Assembly (NCBI RefSeq): GCF_014205015.1
Contig: NZ_JACHMO010000001.1
Span: 4,154,001 to 4,218,000 of the forward strand
Reading direction: 5' to 3'
DNA length: 64,000 bases
Source: Saccharothrix ecbatanensis
GTDB taxonomy: Bacteria; Actinomycetota; Actinomycetes; Mycobacteriales; Pseudonocardiaceae
Shown here: piece after piece, positions 2,029-26,616 of the stretch
Layout: each line of letters begins with the position of its first letter
Numbering within the stretch: position 1 is the first letter of the stretch
Notes under the pieces: model-generated
What the model saw: the letters and a program-made list of their open reading frames with translations, nothing else
The model's database searches: none
What the model was told of the DNA's origin: nothing
Made by a program: the position numbers and the translations under genes

Positions 2029-2705
2029 CCTCCGTACTGGAACTGGACCGGGTGTCGAAGACCTACCTCGGCGGCGTCACGGCGCTGCGGGACGCGTCGC
2101 TCCGCGTCGGCGAAGGCGAGATGGTCGCGATCATCGGACCGTCCGGGTCGGGCAAGTCGACCATGCTGCACCTGATGGGCACGCTGGACCGCCCGAGCGC
2201 GGGCCGGGTGCTGGTCAACGGGCACGACGTCGGCACGGTGCCGGACCGGCGGCTGTCGGCGCTGCGCGCCTGGTGGATCGGCTTCGTGTTCCAGCAGTTC
2301 CACCTGGTCGACGGGCTGACCGCGCGGGAGAACGTGCTGGCCGCCCAGGTCTACCGGGGTGTCCCGCGCCGCGAACGCGGCAGGCGGGCCGACGAGTCGC
2401 TGTCACGTGTGGGGCTCTCGCACCGCTCGGACCACCTGCCGTCGGAGCTGTCGGGCGGCGAGAAGCAGCGCGTCGCCATCGCACGGGCGGTGGTGAACCG
2501 GCCGTTGATCGTGCTGGCCGACGAACCGACCGGGAACCTGGACTCGGCGTCGGGCGGCGAGGTGCTGTCCCTGCTGCACGAGCTCAACGGCGAGGGCACG
2601 ACGATCGTGCTGATCACGCACGACCAGAAGGTGGCGGCGGCGTTGCCGCGGCGGGTCGAGATGCTGGACGGCGCCGTTCGGCTGGACACGGGGTGGCGGT
2701 CGTGA
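2025..2705 (+). CDS. ABC transporter ATP-binding protein (MacB/LolD type)
   Basis: A 226-residue cytoplasmic ATPase with a complete set of ABC motifs: Walker [10 protein letters not shown] at residues 38-46, Q-loop FQQF near 88, signature LSGGEKQR near 142 and Walker [14 protein letters not shown] near 162, with a C-terminal switch His in LITHD. Sequence and size match the MacB/LolD/FtsE class, which powers mechanotransmission rather than classic translocation. It overlaps the adaptor stop by ATGA and the permease start by GTGA, so the three should be made in fixed ratio. Confidence 0.95.
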
Positions 2706-3974: not shown

Positions 3975-4358
3975 TCAGCCGGTGCTCTGGATGCCGGACC
4001 CGACCCTGGAGCTGCCGCTCGGGCAGACCTGGACGATCCGCCACGAGCCCTGACCGACCCAGGCCGAGTAGTAGCGGTAGCCGTTGCTGCACGTGATGTA
4101 CGACCGGATGTACCCGGAGTACACGTTGCAGTAGCGCTCGACGGCGTTGGTGTAGAAGTAGTTCGTGCAGGACCACGACGTCGCGATCGACGGCGCGGTG
4201 TCGGCCGCCACGGCCTGGATCGCCACGGCGGTGTGCCGGGCGGGCGCGGCGGAGGCGGACTGCGCGATACCGAACGTGGCGCCGAACAACGCCAGCGCGA
4301 CGACCAGAGCTTTCAGCCCTTGATCGAGCATCGAGCGCTTCGCAGAAGTGGTAGACAT
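3975..4358 (-). CDS. Small secreted cysteine-containing protein, unknown function
   Basis: Starting at the ATG at 4358 the product has 127 residues; an upstream in-frame ATG at 4409 is less likely because it would lengthen the signal n-region. Residues about 10-38 form a signal peptide ending near SASA-AP. The mature domain is rich in Tyr, Trp and Ser and has four cysteines (SCTNY, RYCNV, ITCSNG, QVCPSG), which suggests two disulfides in a small extracellular protein. A weak GGAAAGACAGG-like ribosome site precedes the start. I do not recognise the family. Confidence 0.75.
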   Translation of the reverse strand: MSTTSAKRSMLDQGLKALVVALALFGATFGIAQSASAAPARHTAVAIQAVAADTAPSIATSWSCTNYFYTNAVERYCNVYSGYIRSYITCSNGYRYYSAWVGQGSWRIVQVCPSGSSRVGSGIQSTG

Positions 4359-4711
4359 CAGCGGCCTGTCTTTCCGTGAAGTCGGAAGAATCCGGACGGG
4401 GAGCAGCATGTACGAATGTGGGACCGCTTCCGACGAACGGAAGAGAAGGCTGCCGGCTGACCGATATCCAGGTCGGGCGTGAAATACGCGCGCATAGCAC
4501 GGCGACCCGGCCGGGGGAAGTCACGGAAGCAGACGCTTCCACGGACGCCCCATTCCGCTAGCCCGAACGGGGCACCATATGCGGGTCTTATGTTTTGCTT
4601 ATGAGGCGACTGGCAGACTCCTGGTCGGACGACCGCCGTTCGCGGAGCGCGGTATTACCGTCGGGGAAGCTCCGCCCAAGGGGTGAGATGCACGTCCGAA
4701 GGGGGACCGCG
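4359..4711. other. 353-bp divergent intergenic region with two GGAAG-type inverted repeats
   Basis: This gap separates the leftward secreted-protein gene from the rightward MerR gene. I see two short perfect inverted repeats with similar half-sites: CTTCCG-N5-CGGAAG at 4427-4443 and GGAAGC-AGAC-GCTTCC at 4525-4540. Either could be a regulator site. No convincing open reading frame is present; the one rightward frame of about 60 codons lacks homology I recognise and normal codon bias. Confidence 0.5.
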
Positions 4712-5488
4712 GTGCAGGACGCCACTCTTGTCGCAGAGCACTACCGGAGCGCGCGATCGAGTATCGGCCGACCCGGTAATACTCGACTGATGAATGCGGA
4801 CGAATTCTCCGCAGAAATCGGGCTGACCGCCCGGACGATCCGCTCGTACCACACACGGGGCCTGCTGCCGCCGCCCGTGCGCATCGGCCGGGCGCCGCAC
4901 TACTCGGCCGATCACCTCAACCGGATGCGCCAGGTGCTGTACCTCCAGCGCTGCGGGCTGTCGCTCGACGCCGTCGCGGCGCTGCTCGAGCCGGACATGG
5001 TGCTCAGCCAGGTCATGCCGGTGAAGGCCGCCGTCACGGAGGCGCTGCGCGGCCGGCCGGAACTCCTCGCCGAGAGCGTCGAAGGAGGCATCGTGTCGTA
5101 TCGGGAGGACGGCGCGGTGGAGGTGCGCGCCGTTAGGGCTGTGCTCGCCGCGGGAGGCCGCAGCACGTCGGCGGCCGGCGCGCTGACCTTGTTGGCCGAA
5201 CTCGCCTCGGCGATCGCCCCGCACGCCGACAACGCGCTGGACATCGTGCGCCGGACGGTCGCCCTCTCGCCATTGGCGAACTCCGTGAACAACCAGACCC
5301 TGATCGACCTGGTGGTCGAGGTGCTGCGGGCGAGAATAAGACTGGTCGGCGTGCGGAGTAAGCCCGAACACCACTCCGCAGGCCGGCCCCGGCGCGAACC
5401 CGGCCCGGTGCCGGGCGTTACCCGTTCACCGGGAAATTCCACCCGGCACGTCACCCGGACGGACGGTCCGGCGGCTTTTTGCGGCTGA
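4712..5488 (+). CDS. MerR-family transcriptional regulator
   Basis: The chosen GTG at 4712 has a strong ribosome site (GAAGGGGGA, six bases upstream) and gives 258 residues; an ATG at 4790 is the alternative. A MerR winged HTH lies at about residues 28-95 (EFSAEIGLTARTIRSYHTRGLLPPP, then YSADHLNRMRQVLYLQRCGLS). The longer C-terminal part, with Leu/Ala-rich helices, may sense a ligand but has no domain I can name. The last 50 residues are Arg/Pro/Gly-rich and probably disordered. It sits upstream of, and in the same direction as, the MFS/PKS-NRPS genes, so it may regulate them; that is an inference from position. Confidence 0.85.
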   Translation: MQDATLVAEHYRSARSSIGRPGNTRLMNADEFSAEIGLTARTIRSYHTRGLLPPPVRIGRAPHYSADHLNRMRQVLYLQRCGLSLDAVAALLEPDMVLSQVMPVKAAVTEALRGRPELLAESVEGGIVSYREDGAVEVRAVRAVLAAGGRSTSAAGALTLLAELASAIAPHADNALDIVRRTVALSPLANSVNNQTLIDLVVEVLRARIRLVGVRSKPEHHSAGRPRREPGPVPGVTRSPGNSTRHVTRTDGPAAFCG

Positions 5489-5715
5489 GCGTGAACTATC
5501 CGAAAAATTCTCCTGAAATCCCTGCGGCGGACGCCCGCTCGGCCACCACTCCGGGCCGGAATTCCCACTGACGAAGCCCACCGCGAGCAACCACGACTAC
5601 GGCGTACGGGTATTGGTGCGCCGAGCGGCTGATTTACCGCGGTAATCGACTCCTTCGGAACCCCGAACCGCGTCGGACGCGGCCGGGGCCGGTCTGCGGC
5701 GTTCGGCGTACAGAC

Positions 5716-5764
5716 CCCCTGACCTGCTCGAACACGGAGCGTTGCGCGCTACTCCGGTCAGGGG
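5716..5764. promoter_or_regulatory. Inverted repeat just upstream of the PKS-NRPS promoter
   Basis: CCCCTGACC (5716-5724) and GGTCAGGGG (5756-5764) form a perfect 9-bp inverted repeat. Inside it is a second, weaker GGAG/CTCC pairing. It ends 17 bases before the -35 box, so it could be an activator or repressor site, or a terminator for upstream transcription. Confidence 0.5.
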
Positions 5765-5781
5765 ACGGGACGGTCGTGGGG

Positions 5782-5810
5782 TTGACGCCCTTGAACCTCC
5801 TGAATACCTT
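5782..5810 (+). promoter_or_regulatory. Predicted promoter of the MFS/PKS-NRPS operon
   Basis: TTGACG (5782-5787), a 17-bp spacer and TACCTT (5805-5810) make a good housekeeping-type promoter. Transcription would begin near 5817, about 23 bases before the predicted TTG start of the MFS gene. The imperfect repeat TTCCCCC/GGGGGGAA at 5809-5829 spans the predicted start point and could be an operator. Confidence 0.65.
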
Positions 5811-5839
5811 CCCCCGAGGGTGGGGGGAAATGAACGCCA

Positions 5840-7060
5840 TTGAATGCTGCCAGTTACCAGACGACACCTTCTAGGGCACCGGGCGCGCGGTTCGCTTGCC
5901 TCGTTGTCGCATATGGGGTGTCGGCCTGCGGCAACTACCTGAACCTCGTCGCGTTGGCGTTGTTCAGCTATCAGGCGACCGGCAGCGGGCTCGGTGTCGG
6001 TCTGCTCGCCGCCCTGCGCCTGGCCGCCGGAGCCCTCGCCGGGTTCGCCGCCGCAGCGCTGGTCAAGAGGTTCGACCGGCGCCGGCTCATGATCGGCGCG
6101 GACCTCGCGCAGGTGGCGGCGATGACCGTCCTGGCGGTGACCACCCACGCCTCCGACATCGTGCTGCTCGGTTGCGCGGTCGCGGTGATGGGCGCGGGCA
6201 ACAGCCTGTTCACGGTGGCGCTGCGCTCGGCGGTGCCGGACATGGTGGGCTCGACGGCGAGGGTCCGGGCGAACGGCCTGCTCGTCACGGCGAAGTCGGT
6301 GGCGATGGTGGTCGGCTTCGCCGGGGCCGGACCGCTGATCGGCCTCGGCGGTTTCGCGGCGGCGTTCGCCTTCAACGCGGCGACGTTCGTGGTGTCGGCC
6401 GTAGCACTGGTCCTGATCCGGTTCCGCGGCCACGACGACACCGCGACCGTGGACAAGGAAATGAGCGCGGGCGGCTACGCGTTGGCCGGGATCGCGCCGG
6501 TCGTGCTGCTGATGCTGGTGCTCCGCGGGATCGACGCGTTGGCGTCGTCGTCGCACAACATCGCCCTCCCGGTGTTCGCGAGCACCGTTCAGCCGGACGG
6601 GGCCGCGGCGTTCATGAGCTACTTCTGGGTCGCGTGGGCGGTCGGGGTGCTGTGCGCCCACCGCGTCGTGACGAAGTGGGGTGGTCTGAGCGGCGCCGAC
6701 CGCCTCCAGCGGACGTTCGGCCTGGCCACGTGCCTGATGGCGGTGTCGTTCACGCTCGCGTTCACCGGGCTGCCCGCCCTTGCGATGGCGTGCGTCGTCC
6801 TGGTCGCCGGCCTGGCCGACGGCATCACCGAGATCGCCTACGTCTCACGCCTGCAAGAAGCACCCGACCACCTCCGCACCCGGCTGTTCGGGCTCTCCGC
6901 GACGATCGAGACGTCCGGTTTCGCCGTGGGCATGGCGGTGGCGGGCGGTCTGCTGGAGGTGCTTCCCGCTGTCGCCGTCGTGGGCCTGCTCCACGGCCTG
7001 GCGTTGTGCGCGGCGACGGCTTTCCTGTTGTTCACAACCACACGTCGACGCACCGGTTGA
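5840..7060 (+). CDS. MFS transporter, probable exporter of the PKS-NRPS product
   Basis: The product has 406 residues and about 12 membrane segments, beginning at about residue 17 (FACLVVAYGVSACGNYLNLVALALF). The cytoplasmic loop VKRFDRRRLMIGADL resembles the MFS motif-A region of drug/efflux proteins. The start is assigned to TTG 5840, ten bases after GGGGGGAA, because no ATG or GTG in frame leaves the first helix intact. Its stop is 23 bases before the PKS-NRPS GTG and both share one promoter. That position supports a role in product export or self-resistance; the substrate is not shown by sequence. Confidence 0.88.
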   Translation: MNAASYQTTPSRAPGARFACLVVAYGVSACGNYLNLVALALFSYQATGSGLGVGLLAALRLAAGALAGFAAAALVKRFDRRRLMIGADLAQVAAMTVLAVTTHASDIVLLGCAVAVMGAGNSLFTVALRSAVPDMVGSTARVRANGLLVTAKSVAMVVGFAGAGPLIGLGGFAAAFAFNAATFVVSAVALVLIRFRGHDDTATVDKEMSAGGYALAGIAPVVLLMLVLRGIDALASSSHNIALPVFASTVQPDGAAAFMSYFWVAWAVGVLCAHRVVTKWGGLSGADRLQRTFGLATCLMAVSFTLAFTGLPALAMACVVLVAGLADGITEIAYVSRLQEAPDHLRTRLFGLSATIETSGFAVGMAVAGGLLEVLPAVAVVGLLHGLALCAATAFLLFTTTRRRTG

Positions 7061-7083
7061 GCGGTGGGATTTGGAGCGGCAAC

Positions 7084-10000
7084 GTGGCCGTAAGCACCAC
7101 TTACCAAGGTCCCGAACTTGAACTGACCGAGGACGACCCGCTCAGCGTGGTCGAGGCGTTGACCCGTGCCGCGCGCACACGGCCGGACGCCGGGGTCGTC
7201 GTCGTAGGCACGGCGGGGCAGTCCGAGCTCCTGACGTACCCGCACATCCTCGACCGCGCGCGACGAATCCTCAGTGGACTGCGCGCCCAGGGCGTGGGGC
7301 AGGGCGACTCCGTCCTGCTGTGCGGGCTGCCGCTGGTCGACTTCTTCCCGGCGTTCTGGGCGTGCTTGCTAGGCGGTGTCCGACCGGTCGTGATCGCCGA
7401 ACCGGCCGACGAGGGCTCCCCCGCGGCCGAGCGGTCGCGGCACACGTGGACGTCGCTGGGTGGGCCGGTGGTGCTCGCCGATCCGTCGACAGCGCGCCGG
7501 TTCACGCGAGCGGTCACGGTGGCCGAGTGCGCCCGGCACGAACCCGCCGGCGAGTTCGCCGAGGCACGGCCGGACGACGTCGTCCTGCTGATGCTGTCGT
7601 CCGGCAGCACGGGGATGCCGAAGGCGATCGGTCTCACGCAGCGGGCGTTGGTGCGGTTCGCGGCGAGTTCGAGGCGAATCCTGGACGTGCGGGCGGATGA
7701 CGTCACGCTGAACTGGCTGCCCCTCGACCACAGCGGGGCGTTGCTGCTCTACCACTTGATGACGGTGTTCGTCGGCTGCACGAACGTCCACGTGCCGACC
7801 GAAGTCGTGCTGGCCGACCCGCCGCGCTGGCTCGACCTGATGGCCGAGCACCGGGCGAACCACAGCTGGGCGCCGACGTTCGCCTTCCAGCTGATCGCCG
7901 ACGCGGTCGCGGACCGACGAGCGGACCGGCGGCCGGAGTGGGACCTCTCCGCGCTCAAAACCCTGGTGTGCGGCGGTGAGCAGATCCTGTTGCCGGTCTT
8001 GCGGCGGTTCCTCGCCGCGTTGGAACCGTGCGGTGTCGTCGAACGTCACGTGGTGCCCGTGTGGGGCATGGCGGAGACCACGACGGCCATCAGCTACGGG
8101 CGCCTCGACCGGCCGGGCACCGTGCTGCGCGTGCTGACCTCCAGTCTGGACGGTCGGCTCGCGTACGCCGACGACTCGGTGCCGGACCGGGAGTGCACGA
8201 CGTTCATCGCGGTCGGGGAACCGGCGCACGAGGCGAGCGCCCGGGTGGTGGACGAGCACGGTTCACCGCTGCCCGAGGACCGGATCGGCCGACTCCAGAT
8301 CCGGTCCGTGCGGGTCACGCCGGGTTACCTGAACGATCCGGAGGCCACCGCGGCGGCGTTCGTTGACGGGGACTGGCTGGACACCGGTGACCTGGCGTTC
8401 CTGACCGGCGGGCAGATCGTGATCACCGGTCGGCACAAGGACGTGATCATCCTCAACGGGCACAACCACTTCGCGCACGAGATCGAGAGCGTCGCGACGA
8501 CCGTGCCCGGTGTCCGGATCGGTGACGTCGCCGCGTGCGGTGTCCCGGACGAACGCACGGGCAGCGAGTCGCTCGCCGTCTTCTTCGTCAGCACGGGGGC
8601 CGACGACACGCGGATCGCCGATGAGGTCAAGCGCGTGCTGTACGGCAGGCTGCGGTTGACCGCGGCGCACGTCGTTCCCGTGACGGATTTTCCGCGCACG
8701 TCGGCCGGCAAGGTGCAGCGGTCGAAGCTCCGTGACCGATTACTCCCCGGTCCTCGACGTGACGCGGGTGGGCTGCGACAGGTGCTGTCGGATGCCGTCA
8801 CCGAGGTGGCCGGGCAACGCATCGGCGACCGGGAACCCTTCTACGACGCGGGTTTGTCGTCCGTCACGCTGGTCCGGCTCCGCCGACGCCTGGAGGATGA
8901 GCTGGGCAGGCCGGTTCCGCAGACGGCGCTGTTCGAGCACCCGACGATCGACGCGCTGGCGCGGCACCTGGCCGGAGCGGACTCGGCAAGTGTGCCGAAA
9001 TCCGCGCCGGACGCGACCCCCGACACCAGGATCGCGGTCATCGGAATGGCCGCGCGGTTCCCCGGAGCGCCATCGGTCGACCAGTTCTGGACGAACCTGC
9101 GCGCAGGCGTGGACAGCACCCGCACCTTCTCCCCCGCCGAGGCCACGGCGGCGGGCGTGCCGGCCGAGCTGATCGCCGATCCGGAGCGGGTGCTCGCCAT
9201 CGGGGCGATCGACGACGTCGACGCGTTCGACGCGGAGTACTTCGGCATGACGCCGCGTGAGGCTGAGTCGACCCACCCGGCGCAGCGGCTGTTCCTCCAG
9301 TGCTGCTACCACGCGTTGGAGAACGGCGGTTACGCCACGGCGGCGGACGCTCGGATCGGGGTGTTCGCCGGGTCGGGGATGAACCTCTACGGCCACCAGG
9401 GGATGCCCGCGACCCGGTCGGACGATCCCGCGGAGCGGATGCAGGCGGCCATCGGCCGGGAACCGGACTTCCTCGCCACGAGGGTGGCCTACCGGCTCGG
9501 GTTGACGGGTCCGGCGATCGGCGTGCAGACGGCGTGCTCGACGGCGTTGGTGGCGGTGCACCTGGCCGTGCAGGCGTTGCTGAACGACGAGGCGGACATG
9601 GCGCTGGCCGGTGCGGCTGCCGTGCACCTGCCGCAGGAGTCCGGTTATCGCAGCTCGACGGGTTCGATCCTGTCGCCTTCCGGGCGTTGCCGACCGTTCG
9701 ACGCGCAAGCCGACGGCACGGTCGGTGGCAACGGTGTGGCCTCGGTCCTGTTGAAGCGGTTGGACCGGGCGCTCGCGGACGGCGACACCATCCACGCGGT
9801 GATCCTCGGTTCCGCGGTCAACAACGACGGCTCGGGCAAGGCCGGGTTCACCGCGCCGGGTGTGGCGGGTCAGGTCGACGTCGTGCAGCGCGCGCTGCGA
9901 CGGGCGGGCGTGCCGGGCGACTCGATCTCCTACGTCGAGGCGCACGGGACGGGGACCGAACTGGGTGACCCGATCGAGTTCACCGCGTTGTCACGGGCGG

Positions 10001-13000
10001 TCGGCGCGGACACCGACCGCCGCGGGTTCTGCACGCTCGGCTCCGTGAAGGGCAACATCGGCCACCTGGACAGCTGCGCGGGCATGGCCGGGCTCATCAA
10101 GACCGTGCTGATGGTGAAGCACGGTGAGCTGGTGCCCACGCTGAACCTCGACCAGCCGAACCCGCAGTTGCGCCTGGCGGACAGTCCTTTCGTGCTCGGC
10201 ACCGCGCTGCGGAAGTGGACGACCGACGGCCTGCCTCGACGGGCGGGGGTGAGCGCGCTCGGCGTGGGTGGGACCAACGCCCATGTCGTGCTGGAGGAAC
10301 CGCCGATGCCGGAGGCGCCGAAGACTTTCGGCCCGGTGATCGTGCCGCTGTCCGCCCGTGATCCACAGGCGCTCGCCACGCTGGCGGAACGGGTGCGTGC
10401 CCACTGTGCCGCCCAGCCGTCGCTGAACGTGGCCGATGCGGCCGTGAGCATGGCGCTCGGCCGCCCGCACCTCCCATACCGGGCGGCGGTGGTCGGATCG
10501 GACCCGGCAGAGTTGGCGAGTCGCCTCGACGCCGTGGTGGGGTCCGCAGAACCATTGCGCGCCTTGGTGTTCGCTTTCCCCGGACAAGGTGTCGCCCGGT
10601 ACGGCATGGCGCGTGACCTGTACTCGGAGTTCCCCGTCGTGCGTCAGGTGTTGGACGAGTGCGAGCAGGTGTATGCGGCCGAGTTCGGGACGGGCTTGCT
10701 CCGGCTCCTGGTCGACGCGGACCCGCAGCCGGGTGAGGTGTGGCCGACGGAGACCGCGCAGCCCGCGCTGTTCGCCTTCCAGGTGGCGTTGGGTCGCCTC
10801 TGGGAGAGCTTCGGGACCCGGCCGGATCTCGTCACCGGGCACAGCCTCGGCGAGTACGCGGCGCTGTGCGTGGCCGGGGCGATGTCCGTGGCGGACGGCG
10901 TGCGGCTGACGGGGACGCGCGGGCGATTGGCCTCGCGGTGTGCGGCGGGCGGGATGCTCGCGGTGTGGGCTGACGCGGCGGTCGTGGAGCGGATCGGGCG
11001 GGCCAGCGGCACGGAGGTCGCGGCGGTCAACGGGCCGCTGGCGCACGTGCTGGCTGGGTCGCTGGAAAACGTGCGCCGGGCCGAACAGCTGCTCGGCGAG
11101 GAAGGCTTGAAGGGGCGGCGGCTTCCGGTCGACGGCGCGTTCCACACCGCTCTGTTGGAACCCGTGTTGCCCGAGTTCCGGGAACATGTCCCGTCGCTGT
11201 GGCCGTTGAAGGTTCCGTTCGCCGGCAGTCTCGACGGGCAGGTCAGGCCGGTGGGTTGGCGGCCCGATGCCGAGTACCTGGTGCGGCAGGCTCGTGAGCC
11301 GGTCCGGTTCGACCTGGTGCTGGCTGCCGTCGCGGATCACACGTGTCTGGAGATCGGGCCCGGTGAGGTGCTGACCGACGCGGGTGGTCACGGGTGGCTG
11401 GCGGGGCTGCGCGTCGATCGACCGGCGGTCGTGGCGGTGTTGGAGGCGTTGGGTGAGCTGTACGTCCGTGGCGCAGATGTGTCCTGGCCCGATGTCGTGC
11501 GTGGTGGGCGGCGCGTGCCGATGCCGGAGTACCCGTTCGCCCGGACGCGGTTCCCGGTGACACCAAAGGTGGAACGGCCGAAAGAACCGGTGGCGTCGGA
11601 CGCGCTCGACGCGGTGCGCGGGGCGACGGCCGAGGTGCTCGGATTGCGCCTTGACGCGGTCCCGCCGGACGGCTCGTTCTTCGCGCTCGGCGCGGACTCC
11701 CTGGCGTTGATGAGCTTGAGCAGGGTGCTGGACCAGCGGTTCGGGGTCAGCGTGCCGATGCGGACCTTGATCACCGAAGCCGACACTCCGCGCAAGCTCG
11801 CGGCGCTGGTCAAGCCCGCCGCCACCCCGCAGCCGGTCCAGACGCCCGTGTCCGCGCCCGACGATGTGCAAGACCTGGTCGGCCGCCAACTGCACCTGAG
11901 CGAACGCCTGGTCGATCTGATGGAACGGCAGCTCGCCCTGCTGTCCGCTCCCGGCGTGACCCCGCCTGTCCCCCGGACCCGTGTTCAACAGCCCGCACCG
12001 CTCGCCGAACCCGTGCTCGCCGAACCCGTGCTCGCCGAACCCGTGCTCGCCGAGCCTGTGCTCGCCGCCGGACCCGCGACGTCCTGCGACTTCAGCCTCT
12101 ACTTCTTCGGCGACTACCCGGAACAGCACGAGACCGACAAGTACGCCTTGATCAACGCCGCGACCGAGTTCGCCGACCGGCACGACTTCCACGCGGTGTG
12201 GTTGCCGGAACGCCACTTCCACTCGTTCGGCGCGTTGTTCCCCAGCCCCTCGGTCCTCGCGGCCTGGCTGGCGGCGCGGACGAAGCAGATCCGGCTGCAC
12301 GCGGGCTCGGTGGTGCTGCCGCTGCACAACCCGATCAGGGTGGCCGAGGAGTGGTCGGTCATCGACAACCTCTCCAACGGGCGGGTCGGCCTGTGCGTGG
12401 CGAGCGGTTGGCACGCCAGGGACTTCGCGCTGGCCCCGGAGAACTACGGGCAGCACAAGGAGTTGGTGCACACGCAGCTGGACACCGTTCGCAGGCTGTG
12501 GGCCGGTGAGGCGATCACGACGAAGTCCGGCAACGGTGACGAGGTCGACGTCCGCCTGTACCCGCGGCCGATCCAGTCCAGCCCGCCGCTGTTCCTCGCG
12601 GTCGTCGGCAACCCGGAGAGCTACCGGCGTGCCGCGGCGCAGGACCTCGGCGTGGTGACCAACCTGATGACCCAGACCGTGGACCAGTTGGCGGCCAACA
12701 TCGCGCTCTACCGGCGAACCAGGGCCGAGAGTGGGCTCGATCCGGCGGCGGGCCGTGTCGTGGTGCTGGTGCACACGTACTTGGGCGCCGACGCCGAGAG
12801 GGCACGGGCCGAGGCGTTCCGGCCGTTCTGCGATTACCTGCGTTCGACGCTGTCCCTGTTCGACCAGGTGACGAACAGCCTCGGCTTCGATATCGACCTG
12901 GAGAACACGCCTCCTGACGACGTCGATTTCCTGCTGGAACGGGCGTACGAACGTTACTGCGCCTCACGGGCGCTGATCGGCAGTGAACAGACCGCCGCCG

Positions 13001-16000
13001 CGGTGGTCGACCAACTGGTGGCCGCGGGCGTGAACGAGATCGCCTGTTTCGTGGACTTCGGCGTGCCGACGGACGACGTGCTGGCCGCGCTGCCCGCCGT
13101 GGACCGGCTGCGGGTCCGGTACCGGTCACGGCCGCTGCCGCTGTCACCCGCCCAGCGCCGGATCTGGTTCCTGGAGAAGATGTACCCGGACAGCAGCGCC
13201 TACCACGAGCCGAAGGCCATCCGGTTCGACGGGCCGCTGGACGTGGACGCGCTCACCGGGGCGCTGGGTCGTGCGGTGAACCGGCATCCGGAGCTGCGGG
13301 TCGTGTTCCAGGAACTCGATGGTGAGCCGCACCGGGTGGTGCTGCCGGAGATCGACGTCGACTGCCCGGTGCTGGACTTCACCGGCTACGACGAGCAGGA
13401 CGCGCTGCGGTCGGTGCTGGGCACGGAGGGCAAGCGGGTCTTCAGCCTGGCGGAAGGGCCGTTGATCCTGGCCCGGCTGCTCAGGTTGGGCCCGGACCGC
13501 CACCTGTTGTTCCTGTTGGTGCACCACATCGTGTTCGACTCGTCGTCCAGCGCGGTGCTGGTGGACGACCTCGCCGCGTACTACCGGGCGTGGCCGGCGC
13601 AACCGGTGGGGCTGCCGCCGGTGGCCGTCCGCGCTCCGGTCGAGGCCGATCCGGCGGTCAAGGAACGTGATCTGGCGTTCTGGCGGCGTGAGCTGGCCGA
13701 TCTGCCGGTGCTGAACCTGCCGACCGATCGACCGCGCGGTGACGTGCGGACCGGTGCGGGGGCGAGCATCACGCGGGAGTTCGGGCCCGACCTGCTGCGC
13801 GACCTGCGGTCGTTCGGGGCCGAGCACCGGACGACGGCGTTCATGTCGCTGTTGAGTGCGATCGGTGTGGTGCTCGGCCGCTTCACGGGCCAACAGGACG
13901 TGGTGGTGGGAACGGCCGTGGCGAACCGACCGCCGGGCGCGGAACGGGAAGTCGGCCTGTTCCTCGACACCGTCGCGGTTCGCCTGGACCTGTCCGGTGA
14001 TCCGGCGTTCACCACCCTGCTGCACCGCGTCCGGGAACGCACGACCGCCGCCTACGAGCACCGGGACGTGCCGTTCGACGAGTTGGTGCGGGCGCTGAAC
14101 CCGGAGCGTGACGCGGGGCGCAACCCGCTGTTCCAGGTGATGGTGGAGTTCGAGCAGGAAGGCGAGGTGGAGTTCGACCCGCCCGCCCTGTCGGCCCGGC
14201 TGCTCGACGTGCCCAGCGACCGGGCGCCGTTCGACCTCACCGTCTACCTCACCCAACACCGCGAGGGCGTGCGGTGCATGATCGAGTACGACACGGCGCT
14301 GTTCGACGGGTGCAGCGTCGAGCGGATGCTGGACTACGTCGATCTGGTGCTGCGCTTGGCTTTGAGGGCTCCGGCGAGCCCGCTTTCCGGGTTGACCCCG
14401 CTCACCGAGGCCGATCGGGCGGCGGTGGGCTCCTGGCAGGGCGCGCCCGTCGACCCGCCGGACGTCCGCCTGCACGAGCTGGTCTCGCTCCAGGCTCAGC
14501 GCACGCCGGACGCGGTCGCGTTGCTCGCCGACGGTGTGGAGTGGCGGTATCGGGAGGTGGAGGAGCGCGCGAACCAGATCGCGTCGCGATTGCGTGAGCG
14601 CGGTGTCGGGCGGGGCGATGTGGTCGCGGTCGTCCTGCCACGAGGGTCGGAACTCATCACGGCGGTGCTGGGCGTGCTCAAGAGCGGCGCAGCCTACTTG
14701 CCGCTCGATCCGGGCCTGCCTCCCGCGAGGGTGGCGTTCTGCGTCGAGGACAGCTCGGCGGCTCTGCTGCTCACCACTGGTCGCGTGCCGGACTGGGCCG
14801 GACTTCCGGTGCAACTCGTCGAGGACGTCGGCGGGGAGGTGTCCGGGTCTGTCCCAGGCGGTAGCCCGGACGATCCGGCGTACTGCATCTACACGTCAGG
14901 CTCCACCGGGCGCCCGAAGGGTGTCCTCGTGCCGCACCGGGGGCCGGTGAACCTGGTGCGCTGGCATCTGCGTCGGCACGCCCCGCTGCGTACCGCGCAG
15001 TGGACCTCGCTGTCGTTCGACGTGAGCGTGCAGGAAATCTTCACCACGCTCGCCGCCGGCGGCACGCTCGTGCTGGTGGACGAGGAGTCCCGGCACGATC
15101 TGGCCGCCGTCGTGGCCAAGTACCGGGTGGAGCGGCTGTTCCTGCCGTTCACGCCGCTGAAGTACCTGGTGGAGACGCAGCCCGACCTGCCGTCGTTGCG
15201 GGAGGTGAACTCCGCCGGCGAGGCGCTGGTTCTCACGCCCGCACTGCGGCAGTTCCTGGCCCGGCATCCCGAGTGCCGGCTCTACAACCAGTACGGGCCG
15301 ACGGAGGCTTCGGTCATCGTCACCTCGCACCGGGTCGACCCCGAAGGCGAGCCGCGCCCGCCCATCGGCACGCCGATCGACGGTGTCCGGCTGCGGGTGG
15401 TGGACGTGGCCGGGAGGGACGTGCCGGTCGGCGTGCCCGGTGAGCTGGTGATCGGCGGTCTGCCGGTGGCGCTGGGGTACGTCGGTCAGGACTCCCCCGC
15501 GTTCGCGCCTGATCTGGACGGCGCTCGCGCCTACCGGACCGGTGACCGGGTGCGGTGGCGGTCCGACGGGACGGTCGAGTTCCTGGGCCGGTTCGACCAG
15601 CAGGTGAAGATCCGCGGTCATCGGGTGGAGCCCGGCGAGGCGGAGTTCGTGCTGGCGGGGTTGGACGACGTGGTGGACGCCGCCGTGGTCGTGCGGGAGT
15701 CCCGTGGTGAGCCCGAGTTGGTGGCCTACGTCGTGCCGAAACGCGCGGGCGCTGCGGTGGACTTCCAGCGGGACTTGGAACGGGTCCTGCCGGACCACCT
15801 GGTGCCGCGGCAGTGGGTCGCCCTGGACCGGTTGCCGTACACGGTGAACGGCAAGCTCGACCACTCCCGGCTGCCCGCGCCGTCGGGTCCGGTCGCGGAT
15901 GAGGGGGAGGCCCCGTCGACCCGCGCCGAACGGTTGTTGCACGACTCGTGGCGGGCGGAGCTGGGGGTGGACGCGGTGTCGGTCACCCGATCGTTCTTCG

Positions 16001-17409
16001 AGCTGGGTGGGCATTCGCTGACCGCTCTGCGCCTGGTGAACCGGATGGCCCGCGACCACGGCGTCGAGATCACCATGACGGAGTTCTTCCGCACCCCGAC
16101 CATCCGTGCGCTGGCACGCCGTCTCCCGGCACACGAAGTGGTCGACACGGCCCCGATGCCGTCGAGCCTGCGTCGGCTGTGGCAACGGCACCACGAGCGG
16201 ACGGATCCGTCGGTCTACAACGTGGTCCAGCGGGTCGACATCGACGGTGAGCTGGACGTGGCGGCGTTGACGCGGGCGTTCCGGGAGGTCGTGCGGCGGC
16301 ACGCGGCCTTGCGCAGCCGGGCGGTGCAGCGTGATGGCGACCTCTTGGTCGAAGTGCTCGACGCCGTGGACGTCGACCTGCCCGTCACCACACTGACGGG
16401 TGGTCATGAGGTCGAGCGGTGGTGCCGGGCGCAGGCGGACGAGCCGTTCTCGCTCCAGGAAGCGCCCCTGTTCCGACTGGGGCTCGGCAAACTCGACGGG
16501 TCGCGGTGGGTGCTGGTGGTCGTGCTGAACCACGCGATCTGTGACGCGTGGTCGCTCGGCATCCTGTGGCGTGACCTGGCGGACCTGTACGCCGGTTCCC
16601 CTGCCCTGCCACCTCAAGCCCAGTACACGGACTACGCGAGGTGGGAGCACCGGCAGCTGAGCGGGGACGGCAAGGCATCACTCGAACGGTTCTGGCGATC
16701 GGAACTGGCCGACGTGCCGCTGCGCCCTGCCCTGCCGGTGGACCGCCCCCGTCCGGCGCGGTTGTCCGGGCGTGGAGGGCTGCACGAGTTCGCCATCGGC
16801 CGCGAGGTCGCCGACCGCGTCGGACGTGTCGCCGCCGAGCTCGGAACCACCCCGTACACGGTCTTGGTCAGCGCCTACGCGGTGTGGCTGGCGGCGCGGT
16901 GCGGGCAGCCGGACGTGGTCGTGCCCGCGTCGAGCGTGAACCGGCTGCGTCCCGAGCACGAGGAGGTGTTCGGTTTCATCGGTGACGCGGTCCTACTGCA
17001 CGCGAAGGTGTCCGCGGCGGCCGACTTCGCCGAACTCGTCGCCCAAATGGGGTCCACGATCTACCGCGCGCTCGACCACCAAGCGCTGCCACTGACCGAG
17101 GTCGCACGCCTGCTGGACCCCAACACCGCGGACACCCTCTTCCCGACCACGTTGTTCACCGTCGTGACCACACAGCCACCGACCTTCGCCCTACCGAACG
17201 CGACCGCGGTGGTTCACCTGCCGGCGCGGGAGGGGTTGGCGCGCAATGAGCTGTACGTCGTGCTGATGCCGTCGGACGACGGGATCCGGGTGGCGATGGA
17301 GTACTCGACGGACCTCTTCGACGAGGCGACGGTGGTGTCCTTGGGCGCGACGTTCGCCGAGACGCTGGCGACCTTCACCGACAACCCGCGGCGGTCGTTG
17401 CGGCACTAG
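7084..17409 (+). CDS. Hybrid PKS-NRPS megasynthase with embedded luciferase-like monooxygenase
   Basis: The GTG at 7084, preceded by GGAGCGG, gives 3,441 residues; the same frame is open farther upstream only as a shadow of the MFS gene. Domains in order: acyl-AMP/CoA ligase (about 30-545; SSGSTGMPK at 172); carrier 1 (GLSS, Ser593); KS (from 650; Cys818, His954, His994 all present); AT (about 1160-1460; GHSLGE with Ser1254, and GAFH at 1351-1354, like the HAFH of malonyl-CoA ATs); carrier 2 (GADSL, Ser1539); four LAEPV repeats (1640-1659); luciferase-like FMN monooxygenase (about 1668-2010); condensation domain (HHIVFDS, His2148); adenylation domain (about 2463-2925; A10 Lys2924); PCP (GGHSL, Ser2978); terminal condensation domain (about 3020-3430; NHAICDA, His3150). 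No KR, DH, ER or thioesterase is visible. It should activate an acyl starter, extend once with malonate, oxidise, couple one amino acid, and release through the last C domain; the chemistry is inferred. Confidence 0.93.
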   Translation: MAVSTTYQGPELELTEDDPLSVVEALTRAARTRPDAGVVVVGTAGQSELLTYPHILDRARRILSGLRAQGVGQGDSVLLCGLPLVDFFPAFWACLLGGVRPVVIAEPADEGSPAAERSRHTWTSLGGPVVLADPSTARRFTRAVTVAECARHEPAGEFAEARPDDVVLLMLSSGSTGMPKAIGLTQRALVRFAASSRRILDVRADDVTLNWLPLDHSGALLLYHLMTVFVGCTNVHVPTEVVLADPPRWLDLMAEHRANHSWAPTFAFQLIADAVADRRADRRPEWDLSALKTLVCGGEQILLPVLRRFLAALEPCGVVERHVVPVWGMAETTTAISYGRLDRPGTVLRVLTSSLDGRLAYADDSVPDRECTTFIAVGEPAHEASARVVDEHGSPLPEDRIGRLQIRSVRVTPGYLNDPEATAAAFVDGDWLDTGDLAFLTGGQIVITGRHKDVIILNGHNHFAHEIESVATTVPGVRIGDVAACGVPDERTGSESLAVFFVSTGADDTRIADEVKRVLYGRLRLTAAHVVPVTDFPRTSAGKVQRSKLRDRLLPGPRRDAGGLRQVLSDAVTEVAGQRIGDREPFYDAGLSSVTLVRLRRRLEDELGRPVPQTALFEHPTIDALARHLAGADSASVPKSAPDATPDTRIAVIGMAARFPGAPSVDQFWTNLRAGVDSTRTFSPAEATAAGVPAELIADPERVLAIGAIDDVDAFDAEYFGMTPREAESTHPAQRLFLQCCYHALENGGYATAADARIGVFAGSGMNLYGHQGMPATRSDDPAERMQAAIGREPDFLATRVAYRLGLTGPAIGVQTACSTALVAVHLAVQALLNDEADMALAGAAAVHLPQESGYRSSTGSILSPSGRCRPFDAQADGTVGGNGVASVLLKRLDRALADGDTIHAVILGSAVNNDGSGKAGFTAPGVAGQVDVVQRALRRAGVPGDSISYVEAHGTGTELGDPIEFTALSRAVGADTDRRGFCTLGSVKGNIGHLDSCAGMAGLIKTVLMVKHGELVPTLNLDQPNPQLRLADSPFVLGTALRKWTTDGLPRRAGVSALGVGGTNAHVVLEEPPMPEAPKTFGPVIVPLSARDPQALATLAERVRAHCAAQPSLNVADAAVSMALGRPHLPYRAAVVGSDPAELASRLDAVVGSAEPLRALVFAFPGQGVARYGMARDLYSEFPVVRQVLDECEQVYAAEFGTGLLRLLVDADPQPGEVWPTETAQPALFAFQVALGRLWESFGTRPDLVTGHSLGEYAALCVAGAMSVADGVRLTGTRGRLASRCAAGGMLAVWADAAVVERIGRASGTEVAAVNGPLAHVLAGSLENVRRAEQLLGEEGLKGRRLPVDGAFHTALLEPVLPEFREHVPSLWPLKVPFAGSLDGQVRPVGWRPDAEYLVRQAREPVRFDLVLAAVADHTCLEIGPGEVLTDAGGHGWLAGLRVDRPAVVAVLEALGELYVRGADVSWPDVVRGGRRVPMPEYPFARTRFPVTPKVERPKEPVASDALDAVRGATAEVLGLRLDAVPPDGSFFALGADSLALMSLSRVLDQRFGVSVPMRTLITEADTPRKLAALVKPAATPQPVQTPVSAPDDVQDLVGRQLHLSERLVDLMERQLALLSAPGVTPPVPRTRVQQPAPLAEPVLAEPVLAEPVLAEPVLAAGPATSCDFSLYFFGDYPEQHETDKYALINAATEFADRHDFHAVWLPERHFHSFGALFPSPSVLAAWLAARTKQIRLHAGSVVLPLHNPIRVAEEWSVIDNLSNGRVGLCVASGWHARDFALAPENYGQHKELVHTQLDTVRRLWAGEAITTKSGNGDEVDVRLYPRPIQSSPPLFLAVVGNPESYRRAAAQDLGVVTNLMTQTVDQLAANIALYRRTRAESGLDPAAGRVVVLVHTYLGADAERARAEAFRPFCDYLRSTLSLFDQVTNSLGFDIDLENTPPDDVDFLLERAYERYCASRALIGSEQTAAAVVDQLVAAGVNEIACFVDFGVPTDDVLAALPAVDRLRVRYRSRPLPLSPAQRRIWFLEKMYPDSSAYHEPKAIRFDGPLDVDALTGALGRAVNRHPELRVVFQELDGEPHRVVLPEIDVDCPVLDFTGYDEQDALRSVLGTEGKRVFSLAEGPLILARLLRLGPDRHLLFLLVHHIVFDSSSSAVLVDDLAAYYRAWPAQPVGLPPVAVRAPVEADPAVKERDLAFWRRELADLPVLNLPTDRPRGDVRTGAGASITREFGPDLLRDLRSFGAEHRTTAFMSLLSAIGVVLGRFTGQQDVVVGTAVANRPPGAEREVGLFLDTVAVRLDLSGDPAFTTLLHRVRERTTAAYEHRDVPFDELVRALNPERDAGRNPLFQVMVEFEQEGEVEFDPPALSARLLDVPSDRAPFDLTVYLTQHREGVRCMIEYDTALFDGCSVERMLDYVDLVLRLALRAPASPLSGLTPLTEADRAAVGSWQGAPVDPPDVRLHELVSLQAQRTPDAVALLADGVEWRYREVEERANQIASRLRERGVGRGDVVAVVLPRGSELITAVLGVLKSGAAYLPLDPGLPPARVAFCVEDSSAALLLTTGRVPDWAGLPVQLVEDVGGEVSGSVPGGSPDDPAYCIYTSGSTGRPKGVLVPHRGPVNLVRWHLRRHAPLRTAQWTSLSFDVSVQEIFTTLAAGGTLVLVDEESRHDLAAVVAKYRVERLFLPFTPLKYLVETQPDLPSLREVNSAGEALVLTPALRQFLARHPECRLYNQYGPTEASVIVTSHRVDPEGEPRPPIGTPIDGVRLRVVDVAGRDVPVGVPGELVIGGLPVALGYVGQDSPAFAPDLDGARAYRTGDRVRWRSDGTVEFLGRFDQQVKIRGHRVEPGEAEFVLAGLDDVVDAAVVVRESRGEPELVAYVVPKRAGAAVDFQRDLERVLPDHLVPRQWVALDRLPYTVNGKLDHSRLPAPSGPVADEGEAPSTRAERLLHDSWRAELGVDAVSVTRSFFELGGHSLTALRLVNRMARDHGVEITMTEFFRTPTIRALARRLPAHEVVDTAPMPSSLRRLWQRHHERTDPSVYNVVQRVDIDGELDVAALTRAFREVVRRHAALRSRAVQRDGDLLVEVLDAVDVDLPVTTLTGGHEVERWCRAQADEPFSLQEAPLFRLGLGKLDGSRWVLVVVLNHAICDAWSLGILWRDLADLYAGSPALPPQAQYTDYARWEHRQLSGDGKASLERFWRSELADVPLRPALPVDRPRPARLSGRGGLHEFAIGREVADRVGRVAAELGTTPYTVLVSAYAVWLAARCGQPDVVVPASSVNRLRPEHEEVFGFIGDAVLLHAKVSAAADFAELVAQMGSTIYRALDHQALPLTEVARLLDPNTADTLFPTTLFTVVTTQPPTFALPNATAVVHLPAREGLARNELYVVLMPSDDGIRVAMEYSTDLFDEATVVSLGATFAETLATFTDNPRRSLRH
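12001..12060 (+). repeat. Four 15-bp tandem repeats (LAEPV linker)
   Basis: Four near-identical copies of CTCGCCGAACCCGTG encode LAEPV four times, in the hinge between carrier 2 and the monooxygenase domain. Only the last copy differs (GAGCCT for GAACCC). It is a flexible linker that can change length by slippage. Confidence 0.9.
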
Positions 17410-17448
17410 GTCGCGGTCCCGAGCAGGAGCCCGACCTATGCTGGCGTT

Positions 17449-18027
17449 GTGGACCAAAAGGAGGAACACGGGGGATCGTTGCGCGCGGATGCCGCGCGCA
17501 ATCGTGAACGAGTGCTGGAGGTCGCGCGGGCACAGCTGTCGGCCGGTGACGACTCGCTCCAGCTCAACGCCATAGCCCGGCTCGCGGGGGTGGGCGTCGG
17601 CACGGTGTACCGGCACTTCCCGAATCGGCACGCGTTGCTGGAAGCCCTTATGTCCGAACGCTTCCAGCGCCTGGTCGAGGATGCACGGGTCGCGGCGGCG
17701 GACGTCGACCCGGCGCGTGGCCTCCAGGCCCTGCTGCGGTCCACGCTCGGGCTGATCTCGACGGACGCCGGCTTCGCTGCGGTGCTGGAGTCCGCCGACC
17801 ACGCCGGCGGGTCGACCGCGGCGATGAAGGCCGACCTCGACCAGGTGGTCACGCGACTGCTCGACCGAGCCGGTGAGGCGGGCGTCATCCGAACGGACGT
17901 CGACGCCGACGACATCAGGCGCCTGTTGTGCGGCGTGCAGCACGCGGTCCGCTCCGGCGGCAACGATCCCCGCCAAGCCGACCTGTACCTCGACGTCCTC
18001 CTCGGCGGGCTGCGCCCGAGACACTGA
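17449..18027 (+). CDS. TetR-family regulator
   Basis: A 192-residue protein with an N-terminal TetR HTH at about residues 15-60 (AIARLAGVGVGTVYRHFPNRHALLEAL) and a helical ligand-binding part like that of many actinobacterial TetR proteins. It starts 39 bases after the PKS-NRPS stop with GTG 17449; GAGCAGGAG upstream is rather far for a ribosome site. Two copies of a 12-bp palindrome lie just after its stop and before the SDR gene, so repression of the SDR is likely. Whether the pair belongs to the biosynthetic cluster is unclear. Confidence 0.9.
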   Translation: MDQKEEHGGSLRADAARNRERVLEVARAQLSAGDDSLQLNAIARLAGVGVGTVYRHFPNRHALLEALMSERFQRLVEDARVAAADVDPARGLQALLRSTLGLISTDAGFAAVLESADHAGGSTAAMKADLDQVVTRLLDRAGEAGVIRTDVDADDIRRLLCGVQHAVRSGGNDPRQADLYLDVLLGGLRPRH

Positions 18028-18037
18028 CCACCACTAA

Positions 18038-18089
18038 ACGGATAGCTATCCACTCATGCTACGGTGGGACTAAGTGGATAGCTATCCGT
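18038..18089. promoter_or_regulatory. Twin TetR-type operators in front of the SDR gene
   Basis: The perfect 12-bp palindrome GGATAGCTATCC occurs at 18040-18051 and 18076-18087, with centres 36 bp apart. The flanks are mirror images (ACGG...CCACT and AGTGG...CCGT), so the two sites also form an inverted repeat of each other. A TACGGT -10-like hexamer (18060-18065) lies between them. Binding of the adjacent TetR protein here would block the SDR promoter. Confidence 0.75.
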
Positions 18090-18105
18090 ATATGGGGGTG
18101 CGCCG

Positions 18106-19023
18106 GTGGTGCGAACAGCGGTGGTCACAGCGGGAACGGCCGGCATCGGGTTGGAGACCGCCTTGGGGTTGGCGGCGGCCGGTTTCGCGGTCACGGTGGT
18201 CGGACGCGATCCGGAGCGCGGCGCCCGTGCGGTCGACCGGATCAACGCCGCGGCACCGGACCACCGGGCCCGGTTCCTGGCCGCCGACCTGGCCTCCCTC
18301 GAAGCGGTGCGGGCTCTCGCCGACGGCATCGCCGCCGAAGGGCCGCTCGGCGTCCTGGTCAACAACGTCGGGGCGATGTTCGCGGCCCGCCAGGATTCGG
18401 TCGACGGGATCGAGGCGACGTTCGCGGTCAACCACCTCTCGCCGTACCTGCTGACGGAACTGCTGCTGCCCTCGCTGCGAGCCGGCGCGCCGAGCCGGGT
18501 GGTGAACGTGACCTCGGGCTCGGTCCGCGTCGCCAAGCGGGTGTTCGACGCCGTCGAACCGCCCGGCGGCTACTACGGCTTCCACTGGTACGGCCGCGCC
18601 AAGCTCGCCAACCTCGCCCACACCCTCGACCTCGCGCGGCGGTTGGACGGCTCGGGCGTCTCGGTGTTCGCCGCCGATCCCGGCGGCGCCGCGACGGACA
18701 TGACCAACGGCACCATGGCCGACCCCGCGATCGTGTCCCCCGGACTGCGCCTGCTCTGGCCACTCGTCCGCCGAACGTTCCGACGCGCCACCTCCGGCCC
18801 CGCCTCGGTGGCGGCCAAGCCCTCGATCTTCGCCGCCACCGACGCTTCGTTGGCCGACCGGACCGGCATCGTCATCGGCCCACGAGCCCAGCCCGTCACG
18901 CCGTTCCGCCCGGCCACCGATCCGCGCGTCGCGGCGGCTGTCCGCCGGCTCAGCGAACGTCTCGCCCCGATCACCGCGTCGGCCACCATCGACGGCGTGG
19001 ATGGCCGGGGTCGGCACAAGTGA
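18106..19023 (+). CDS. SDR-family NAD(P)-dependent oxidoreductase
   Basis: A 305-residue short-chain dehydrogenase resembling the retinol-dehydrogenase-like group. Seen: the nucleotide-binding motif TAGTAGIG near residues 6-13, the NNVG motif, a Ser in VNVTSGS, and the catalytic YGRAK (Tyr-x-x-x-Lys). It starts at GTG 18106, downstream of GGGGGTG and the twin TetR operators. The substrate is unknown. It could be a tailoring enzyme for the neighbouring megasynthase or a TetR-controlled detoxification enzyme. Confidence 0.9.
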   Translation: MVRTAVVTAGTAGIGLETALGLAAAGFAVTVVGRDPERGARAVDRINAAAPDHRARFLAADLASLEAVRALADGIAAEGPLGVLVNNVGAMFAARQDSVDGIEATFAVNHLSPYLLTELLLPSLRAGAPSRVVNVTSGSVRVAKRVFDAVEPPGGYYGFHWYGRAKLANLAHTLDLARRLDGSGVSVFAADPGGAATDMTNGTMADPAIVSPGLRLLWPLVRRTFRRATSGPASVAAKPSIFAATDASLADRTGIVIGPRAQPVTPFRPATDPRVAAAVRRLSERLAPITASATIDGVDGRGRHK

Positions 19024-19046: not shown

Positions 19047-19943
19047 TCAGCGGTCGACCTGTTCCAGCAGGAACTCCTGGTCCGGCCGGCCGGAGCACGT
19101 GGTCTGCGCCAGCTCGGCCCCGGCGTCGACGTCGGCCGGGCCGTACAACAGACCGACGCACTTGCCGCTGTGCACCGGACGCAACGTGAACCCGTTCGGC
19201 ACGGGTGTGCGCACGGGTTCCAGCAGGAACCGCTGGTGCGCGGCCGAGTCGCAGTGTTCCGGCTGTAGCAGCGTTTCGTCGGCCAGGGACGCCTCGCCGA
19301 CCGACAGGCAGCCCCAGCCCTCTTGCGGGTGGTTCCACTTGATCAGGTAGACGCCCGCGCCCACGGCCGCCAGATAGGTGTCCGGCACCAACCCTTCGCA
19401 CGGTCGCTGCACGGCCAGCGCATGGTCGGTGCGCCCGTTGCGCTCACGCCCCTCCCCCACGCACAGGTCGCGGTCGGCGGTGTGGGCCGGGCGGATCAGG
19501 TACTGGCCGTCGGCGGGAAGTGGCGCCAGGTCGGACGGCCGGACCAGCAGCACGACGCTCGTCGCGGCCACGATCACCGCCACCGCGCCGACCACCCACC
19601 ACTTCCACCGTTTGCGGGGCGGCGGCGGAGGAGGAGGCTCTTCGACGTCCGGCAACTGGACGGCTAATCGCCGGCGTGCCGCGAGCCAGCGCTCGACGTC
19701 CGGCTCGTCCAGCCCGCAGGCCCGGGTGAACGCGGACACGAGCGGTTCCCTGGGCAGGGTGTCGCGGTTGAGCATCGTCGCCGTCGTGCTGGACGGCAGC
19801 ACGTCGTCGTTCGCGCGGGCCTTCGCCTCCAACTGCCGGTACGTCAGCCCCGACCACAGGCGAAGGCGTTTCATCGAAGCGATGAACTCCGCCACCGTCG
19901 CCGAGTCCTCTGGCCGTGGTGGCGAATCATCCCGCTGCGTCAC
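19047..19943 (-). CDS. Membrane-anchored HTH protein with extracytoplasmic beta-trefoil-like domain
   Basis: GTG 19943, directly preceded by GGGACC, gives 298 residues; the frame extends upstream but overlaps the divergent promoter. The N-terminus (about 10-75) is the XRE-like HTH common in actinobacteria (FIASMKRLRLWSGLTYRQLEAKA ... LPREPLVSAFTRACGL). A proline run, a basic patch and one membrane helix (about 108-130, WWVVGAVAVIVAATSVVLLV) follow. The outside domain has repeated CLSV/CVGL-type motifs with Gln and Cys, similar to ricin-B-like trefoils. This could be a one-component transmembrane regulator, with carbohydrate sensing as a possibility. It diverges from the SARP gene. Confidence 0.75.
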   Translation of the reverse strand: MTQRDDSPPRPEDSATVAEFIASMKRLRLWSGLTYRQLEAKARANDDVLPSSTTATMLNRDTLPREPLVSAFTRACGLDEPDVERWLAARRRLAVQLPDVEEPPPPPPPRKRWKWWVVGAVAVIVAATSVVLLVRPSDLAPLPADGQYLIRPAHTADRDLCVGEGRERNGRTDHALAVQRPCEGLVPDTYLAAVGAGVYLIKWNHPQEGWGCLSVGEASLADETLLQPEHCDSAAHQRFLLEPVRTPVPNGFTLRPVHSGKCVGLLYGPADVDAGAELAQTTCSGRPDQEFLLEQVDR

Positions 19944-20010
19944 GGTCCCATGATGCCGGCGTAACGCTCCGCGTCCACCGCCGTTTCCGCACGAAACCCC
20001 TTGGCCTGCA

Positions 20011-20040
20011 CGAACAAACCCGAACAGATCCGAACGGCCG
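20011..20040. promoter_or_regulatory. Three 10-bp direct repeats between the HTH and SARP genes
   Basis: CGAAC occurs at 20011, 20021 and 20031 (units CGAACAAACC, CGAACAGATC, CGAACGGCCG), spaced exactly one helical turn. A further CGAAA lies at 19992. SARP activators are known to bind heptameric direct repeats spaced about one turn, so this may be an autoregulatory site. Confidence 0.55.
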
Positions 20041-20093
20041 TCCGGCACGTGCCGCTGGTAGACCGTGGGTCACCGACGACGGGGAGGTCCGCG

Positions 20094-23876: not shown

Positions 23877-26616
<2,740 letters not shown>

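Follow-up and report, generated by a model that had tools for sequence, protein, structure and literature searches.

The window analyzed here, a 64,000-nucleotide stretch of the genome of the soil actinomycete Saccharothrix ecbatanensis, carries what appears to be a two-gene cassette, in which an MFS exporter gene directly precedes the gene for a single PKS-NRPS protein that has no thioesterase and ends in a condensation (C) domain. Our preferred reading, to which we give a probability of roughly 0.48, slightly short of even odds, is that this protein builds a starter-malonyl-hydroxyl-proline chain and that the terminal C domain releases it onto a free nucleophile, probably an amine.

The synthetase is encoded in one frame, and its GTG start at 7084 sits 23 bases past the MFS stop and is preceded by GGAGCGG. 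Pfam profiles, applied to the longer open frame 5896-17409, matched two AMP-binding, three PP-binding, one KS, one AT, one Bac_luciferase, and two Condensation domains; no KR, DH, ER, aminotransferase, TE, or reductase domain was found in that frame. Taken together, the sequence and the domain layout give the order starter adenylation-ACP-KS-AT-ACP-luciferase-like monooxygenase (LLM)-C-A-PCP-C, with the following coordinates in the window:

5840..7060, + strand: MFS exporter gene (PF07690), directly upstream of the synthetase, start codon uncertain
7084..17409, + strand: PKS-NRPS gene, 3441 aa (Pfam, GTG start)
7111..8769, + strand: starter adenylation domain, with Ser at the amino-acid-binding Asp place and GM in the A5 motif
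8791..9003, + strand: ACP1 (GLSS)
9025..10488, + strand: ketosynthase with linker, Cys-His-His intact
10561..11493, + strand: acyltransferase (GHSLGEY/AFHT)
11551..11823, + strand: ACP2 (GADS)
11824..12084, + strand: linker between ACP2 and LLM, 261 bases, too short for an aminotransferase or KR
12085..13113, + strand: luciferase-like monooxygenase (TIGR04020, 472.5 bits)
13135..14433, + strand: first condensation domain (HHIVFDS)
14491..15873, + strand: amino acid adenylation domain, proline-like code DVQFNAQVI(K), last K assumed
15901..16137, + strand: PCP (GGHS)
16138..17406, + strand: terminal condensation domain, the proposed release domain
16528..16548, + strand: NHAICDA motif, with the second His (16531-16533) and the Asp (16543-16545) kept

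The Cys-His-His triad of the KS is intact (TACSTA, EAHGTGT, and GHLDSCAG), as are the AT motifs GHSLGEY and AFHT, a combination that we take to be of the malonyl type. The active-site serine is kept in all three carrier proteins. An initial annotation of this region had given the same domain order and coordinates, a KS-AT module free of reductive domains, and a full set of carrier serines and KS catalytic residues; Pfam and the intact motifs bore out each of these points.

One genome per species was scanned, and relatives of the starter domain turned up at 23 loci. The window-type gene is present in Saccharothrix sp. NRRL B-16314 (83% in the best segment), S. carnea (80%), Actinosynnema sp. 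ALI-1.44, and four Streptomyces, and in Lentzea aerocolonigenes as a gene cut by the contig end. Counting our own genome, searches at E <= 1e-100 gave matches in 7 of 298 genomes of the order and 2 of 396 in a phylum sample, and a genus search at E <= 1e-80 gave matches in 5 of 25 genomes, with close matches in three (our own, 84%, and 80%). Eleven window-type genes are full length (the window, NRRL B-16314, S. carnea, ALI-1.44, TRM68416, MP131-18, YS415, S. zhaozhouensis, G076, G283, and G429), and each carries all ten domains in a single frame with no stop; four carrier domains that BLAST had missed in this comparison were located via the serine motif in the gaps. Two candidates, G150 and G700, whose starter domains matched at 39 and 42%, were rejected as orthologs, with no LLM or C match in the stretches examined, and the counts leave out G171 and L024, the latter being cut off inside the AT by the contig end. 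We concluded that other actinomycetes carry this kit as well.

We compared 19 neighborhoods, our own included, and three further ones. An MFS match adjoins the synthetase in 17 of the 19, and also in G429; the two misses are TRM_2, a different line with no KS or C matches, and G209b, where the contig starts inside the gene. Clustering of composition-scored ORFs found no gene family besides MFS common to more than two neighborhoods; this gene calling is crude and missed several genes, including the window's own MFS gene, and hence a small conserved gene could have escaped notice. The next downstream genes were mutually dissimilar in ten proteins compared by eye. Because the MFS gene is the only conserved neighbor found, it and the PKS-NRPS gene appear to be the natural unit.

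The initial annotation had placed the synthetase in a cluster with an exporter and regulators. The exporter kept its place, and the regulators did not: MerR matches occurred in 2 of the 19 neighborhoods (our own and NRRL B-16314), and TetR and SDR each had a match in 1 of 19, our own. The stretch 17449-19023 holds a TetR gene and, after it, an SDR gene, with the sequence ACTAA(AC/GT)GGATAGCTATCC standing twice between the two (18033-18051 and 18069-18087) as a doubled palindrome. The pair is likely self-regulated and has no matches in the ortholog neighborhoods. We rejected it as part of the cluster, and the SDR as a reductase for the beta-keto group: 0 of the 18 other neighborhoods matched at E 1e-6, in a search that covered about 1.2 kb of downstream sequence in S16314 and none in Lentzea. 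Elsewhere in the window, the stretch 538-3916, upstream of MerR, encodes a set that resembles an exporter: an ABC ATPase, a MacB/FtsX permease, and a protein that combines a long Gly-Pro-Ala repeat with a peptidoglycan-binding domain. On the minus strand, a single protein (23877-26555) combines glucuronyl esterase and GH10 glycosyl hydrolase domains, and a single chain (19047-20048) has weak helix-turn-helix and weak ricin-type lectin matches.

The hallmark of TE release in canonical PKS-NRPS lines, a C-terminal or clustered TE, is absent. No PF00975 thioesterase was found within the window or among its 30 coding-like ORFs that were scanned; of 22 matches genome-wide, the nearest lie about 127 kb downstream and about 157 kb upstream of the gene. 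Among the same 30 ORFs, the alpha/beta hydrolase closest to the gene belongs to Peptidase_S9 (21954-23810) and lies 4.5 kb downstream. The stop follows the end of the last C match by 0 to 26 residues in all 11 full-length genes. The earlier observation that the line lacks a thioesterase and closes with a C domain was thereby confirmed. We concluded that, of the domains seen, only the terminal C domain is a candidate for release.

That domain carries NHAICDA, which the initial annotation had described as standing in place of HHxxxDG. The motif is indeed present, but it is not a full replacement: the second His and the Asp are kept, and none of the 13 terminal C domains aligned departs from these residues (His132 and Asp136). 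Outside Saccharothrix, the seven window-type orthologs that were aligned read HH(A/S/L)(V/I)CD(A/G), in an alignment whose C2 block holds C1 sequence in the Lentzea and G157b rows, and the Asn is confined to three Saccharothrix. The substitution thus occurs in Saccharothrix alone and leaves the catalytic His in place, and the bearing on mechanism that had been given to it was not upheld. We rejected a dead or odd C domain on the same evidence; the last domain is a C domain with its catalytic His, as in lines released by a terminal C domain. The ratio dN/dS of the last C domain was 0.19 against NRRL B-16314 and 0.25 against S. carnea (NG86, script), and that of the whole gene was 0.24 and 0.27, respectively (NG86, script), indicating that the last domain is under constraint like the rest of the gene. 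With 11 full-length genes and these ratios, the ten-domain order is more than chance.

A phylogeny of C domains was built from 52 sequences, including 20 of the 62 C-domain matches of our own genome (fragments are counted in the 62). Fifteen terminal C domains formed one group (support, 100/99), 17 first C domains formed another (100/100), and the 20 own-genome domains stood apart; the terminal C domains of Lentzea (where the contig ends before it), G157b, and G429 were left out of the tree. The terminal domains are thus monophyletic. The clade, which includes an aminotransferase-containing sister line (L052), points to terminal C domains inherited together and says nothing on known subtype. 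An AlphaFold model of the last domain (pLDDT, 91.5) has a plain C-domain fold, and the best matches in a fold search include TycC5-6, Txo2, CmnI, HtmB2-CT, and SgcC5. HtmB2-CT has the highest identity among the best 50 fold matches (30%; TM, 0.87) and is also the best PDB sequence match (8z0q/8z0r; 182.5 bits, with the next at 153.8). It is a terminal C domain by its name, but it has Trp where the last C domain here has the catalytic His, and hence it does not predict the reaction of our domain. We concluded that the system is real, conserved, and probably functional.

The starter domain matched StsA (310 bits) and McyG (290 bits) best among the solved structures listed, whereas the solved fatty-acyl ligases listed scored about 140 bits or less. 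The FAAL profile NF006624 did not reach its cutoff of 600, with a score of 303.5 bits that covers the whole open frame in two stretches, the better of them on the starter domain. A fatty-acyl starter is therefore not favored, given 310 bits for StsA against about 140 for the listed fatty-acyl ligases. Of the acyl ligase proposed initially, the adenylation-type starter stands, and the kinship with fatty-acyl ligases does not, as StsA and McyG are nearer by bit score. StsA takes alpha-ketoisocaproate, has Ile306 at the place of the amino-acid-binding Asp, and needs Met415 (PMC11253843). Alignment with 6ulw puts Ser at the Ile306 place and Met at Met415, and the Ser (at the Asp235 place) and the Gly-Met are kept in 10 window-type rows plus Lentzea; L052 and G065, two sister lines, have Val at the Asp place. 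The Ser and Met at these two places make a small acid with no alpha-amino group the likely starter substrate. McyG, however, has Val at the Asp place and yet is listed as activating L-Phe (PMC11253843), so an amino acid starter remains compatible with the missing Asp.

The LLM domain scored 472.5 bits against TIGR04020 (MupA/Atu3671 luciferase-like monooxygenases), above the cutoff of 244.45, and its nearest solved domain is the PuwE Ox domain (6ket; 398 bits). The compact line and the small acyl-beta-keto(oxidized)-aminoacyl chain put forward in the initial annotation were both supported. The first C domain reads HH(I/L)VFDS across 11 window-type rows, our own and Lentzea included. The adenylation domain after it gave the code DVQFNAQVI(K), with the columns placed manually from motifs against a reference and the last K assumed; with columns placed in the same way, 8 of 10 window-type rows (our own included) fit DVQF(F/Y/N)AQ(V/I)(I/V)K, and the deviating codes are DVQLLCQII in G076 and DVQFAAEII in G283. 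Both DVQFVAQVVK and DVQFVSQVMK are listed as Pro codes (PMC9113097), and other Pro codes have His where the Gln stands (PMC2866473, PMC9113097). Among solved A domains, that of LgrA is nearest in sequence, a match that says little about specificity. On its code, the A domain reads as proline-like; sister lines do not keep the proline code.

The sister lines vary the same theme. L052, the second line in ALI-1.44 (frame 4024-17943; 4639 aa), reads starter-KR-ACP-KS-AT-ACP-aminotransferase(III)-LLM-C-A-PCP-C by Pfam, and G065 has the same spacing. The aminotransferase and monooxygenase of PuwE have been assigned a 3-amino-2-hydroxy pattern (PMC4219810), and a cyanobacterial preprint links such a pair to a 3-amino-2-hydroxy motif (PMC13252402); the product of L052 is expected to be a 3-amino-2-hydroxy acyl amino acid. 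In G157 (L053) the terminal C domain is a separate frame (5997-7487, minus strand) right after an LLM-C-A-PCP protein. Two lines that lack a starter domain begin with the KS, one in S. zhaozhouensis and one in G157. The former (L056), a second MFS gene with a KS-first line that ends LLM-C-A-PCP-C, shares a contig with the window-type cassette, about 30 kb away and on the opposite strand. An MFS gene is present in every sister line named here.

We infer the steps from starter activation to proline coupling from the families of the domains. The starter domain would activate a small carboxylic acid (alpha-keto- or aryl-acid-like, probably with no alpha-amino group) and load it onto ACP1. The KS-AT pair would add a single malonyl unit, whose beta-keto group the protein would leave unreduced, and the LLM domain would hydroxylate the alpha carbon on ACP2. 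The first C domain would condense the chain with PCP-bound proline, and the terminal C domain would take the acyl-prolyl chain off the PCP and join it to a small free nucleophile, for which an amine is the likeliest candidate. The resulting product would be R-CO-CH(OH)-CO-Pro-NHR', built and released by the single PKS-NRPS and presumably exported by the MFS protein. The nature of the nucleophile is the least supported point of this proposal. In the biosynthesis of glidonin, the last module uses its C domain to add putrescine to the chain, and the second His of HHxxxDG is functional (PMC10587159); we count this capture of a free amine as precedent for the proposed release.

Free-amine capture is favored; an internal ester and a hand-over in trans come next, and a Dieckmann closure is less likely. 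In the internal ester reading, which we regard as unlikely, the terminal C domain would use the alpha-hydroxyl installed by the LLM to attack the prolyl thioester of the same chain, giving a six-membered morpholine-2,5-dione fused to the proline ring, so that the enzyme would yield a finished bicycle without a second substrate. Such a closure requires no extra gene and fits a two-gene cassette, and an LLM is present in 15 of 15 lines of the terminal-C clade, some of which were found via the LLM. Cyclizing terminal C domains are general in fungal cyclic-peptide NRPSs (PMC8949500), and one has been proposed for palmerolide. Against it, the literature excerpts consulted hold no precedent for closure of a small-ring depsipeptide by a bacterial terminal C domain, and the sister lines differ in their A-domain code. 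In this picture the oxygenase would prepare the chain for release, one polypeptide making the finished bicycle through the hydroxyl that it installed, a notion that we consider unlikely; if it were true, the sister lines of the terminal-C clade would act likewise on beta-amino chains.

A hand-over in trans, in which the chain would pass through the terminal C domain to an amino acid carried by an A-PCP protein from another locus, is also improbable. The genome is rich in NRPSs, as its 62 C-domain matches (fragments included) suggest, and the separate reading frame in G157 indicates that the domain is able to stand apart. However, no A-PCP gene was found conserved beside the orthologs in the neighborhoods compared, and the short distance from the last C match to the stop leaves little room for a docking stretch.

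Rather less probable is a Dieckmann reaction, in which the terminal C domain would close an N-(beta-ketoacyl)-prolyl-S-PCP to a bicyclic proline tetramate. Lines that make tetramate precursors usually hand a beta-ketoacyl chain to C-A-PCP (PMC10161427), but the closing enzymes named in the excerpts consulted are TE, R, KS, or free cyclases, none of which stands at the end here. The terminal-C clade also holds an aminotransferase line, which should lose the bare beta-keto group that the reaction needs, and this makes a Dieckmann closure less likely. Finally, a relic terminal C domain, with the chain set free by hydrolysis either spontaneously or through an unlinked hydrolase such as one of the 22 PF00975 proteins elsewhere in the genome or the S9 protein with its alpha/beta-hydrolase fold 4.5 kb downstream, is very improbable in view of the purifying selection on the last C domain, its invariant His and Asp, and the lack of a counterpart of the S9 gene in the other neighborhoods compared.

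We return to release onto a free nucleophile as the preferred reading. At 11.6 kb, the two genes are small enough for whole transfer into a laboratory host, which lets the role of a lone bacterial terminal C domain as a release domain be asked directly. The cassette would also define a recurring actinobacterial family, with or without aminotransferase and KR, tied to one release logic, and the terminal-C clade, the LLM, and an adjacent MFS gene together offer a marker for further lines. Even if the product proves ordinary, the cassette would represent an additional orphan family for which the structure hypothesis is clear. The titles and abstract openings searched in the open-license literature yielded no description of the cassette or its product, and no paper was found there on a Streptomyces PKS-NRPS with a monooxygenase domain and a terminal C domain. 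The parts are known; their order and stand-alone setting were not found described in the literature searched.

Several known systems share parts of this arrangement. Amine-adding C domains stand at the ends of rhabdopeptide/xenortide-like lines. Like StsA and McyG, the starter domain has a nonacidic residue at the Asp place and keeps the Gly-Met of StsA; it differs in having no KR beside it, and a KR is present in the sister line L052. PuwE of the puwainaphycin pathway (KS-AT-ACP-aminotransferase-Ox-C-A-PCP) has in common with our line a single malonyl extension without reduction and an LLM of the same family followed by an NRPS module, and the order KS-AT-ACP, then LLM, then C-A-PCP of such beta-amino-alpha-hydroxy acyl lines is found here. 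It differs in that our line has no aminotransferase (no Aminotran_3) in the 261-base linker between ACP and LLM, carries a fused starter domain, and ends in a C domain with no further NRPS and no TE. Tetramic acid PKS-NRPS lines also pass a beta-ketoacyl chain to C-A-PCP and from there to a TE, an R domain, or a free cyclase (PMC10161427, PMC8949500); here there is no terminal TE or R* by Pfam and no PF00975 in the window, and an LLM is added. The likeness to glidonin module 13, in the excerpt consulted, lies in a C domain that forms the bond of release by capturing a free amine, and the difference lies in what follows that domain: A*-T-TE in glidonin, whereas here the C domain is the last.
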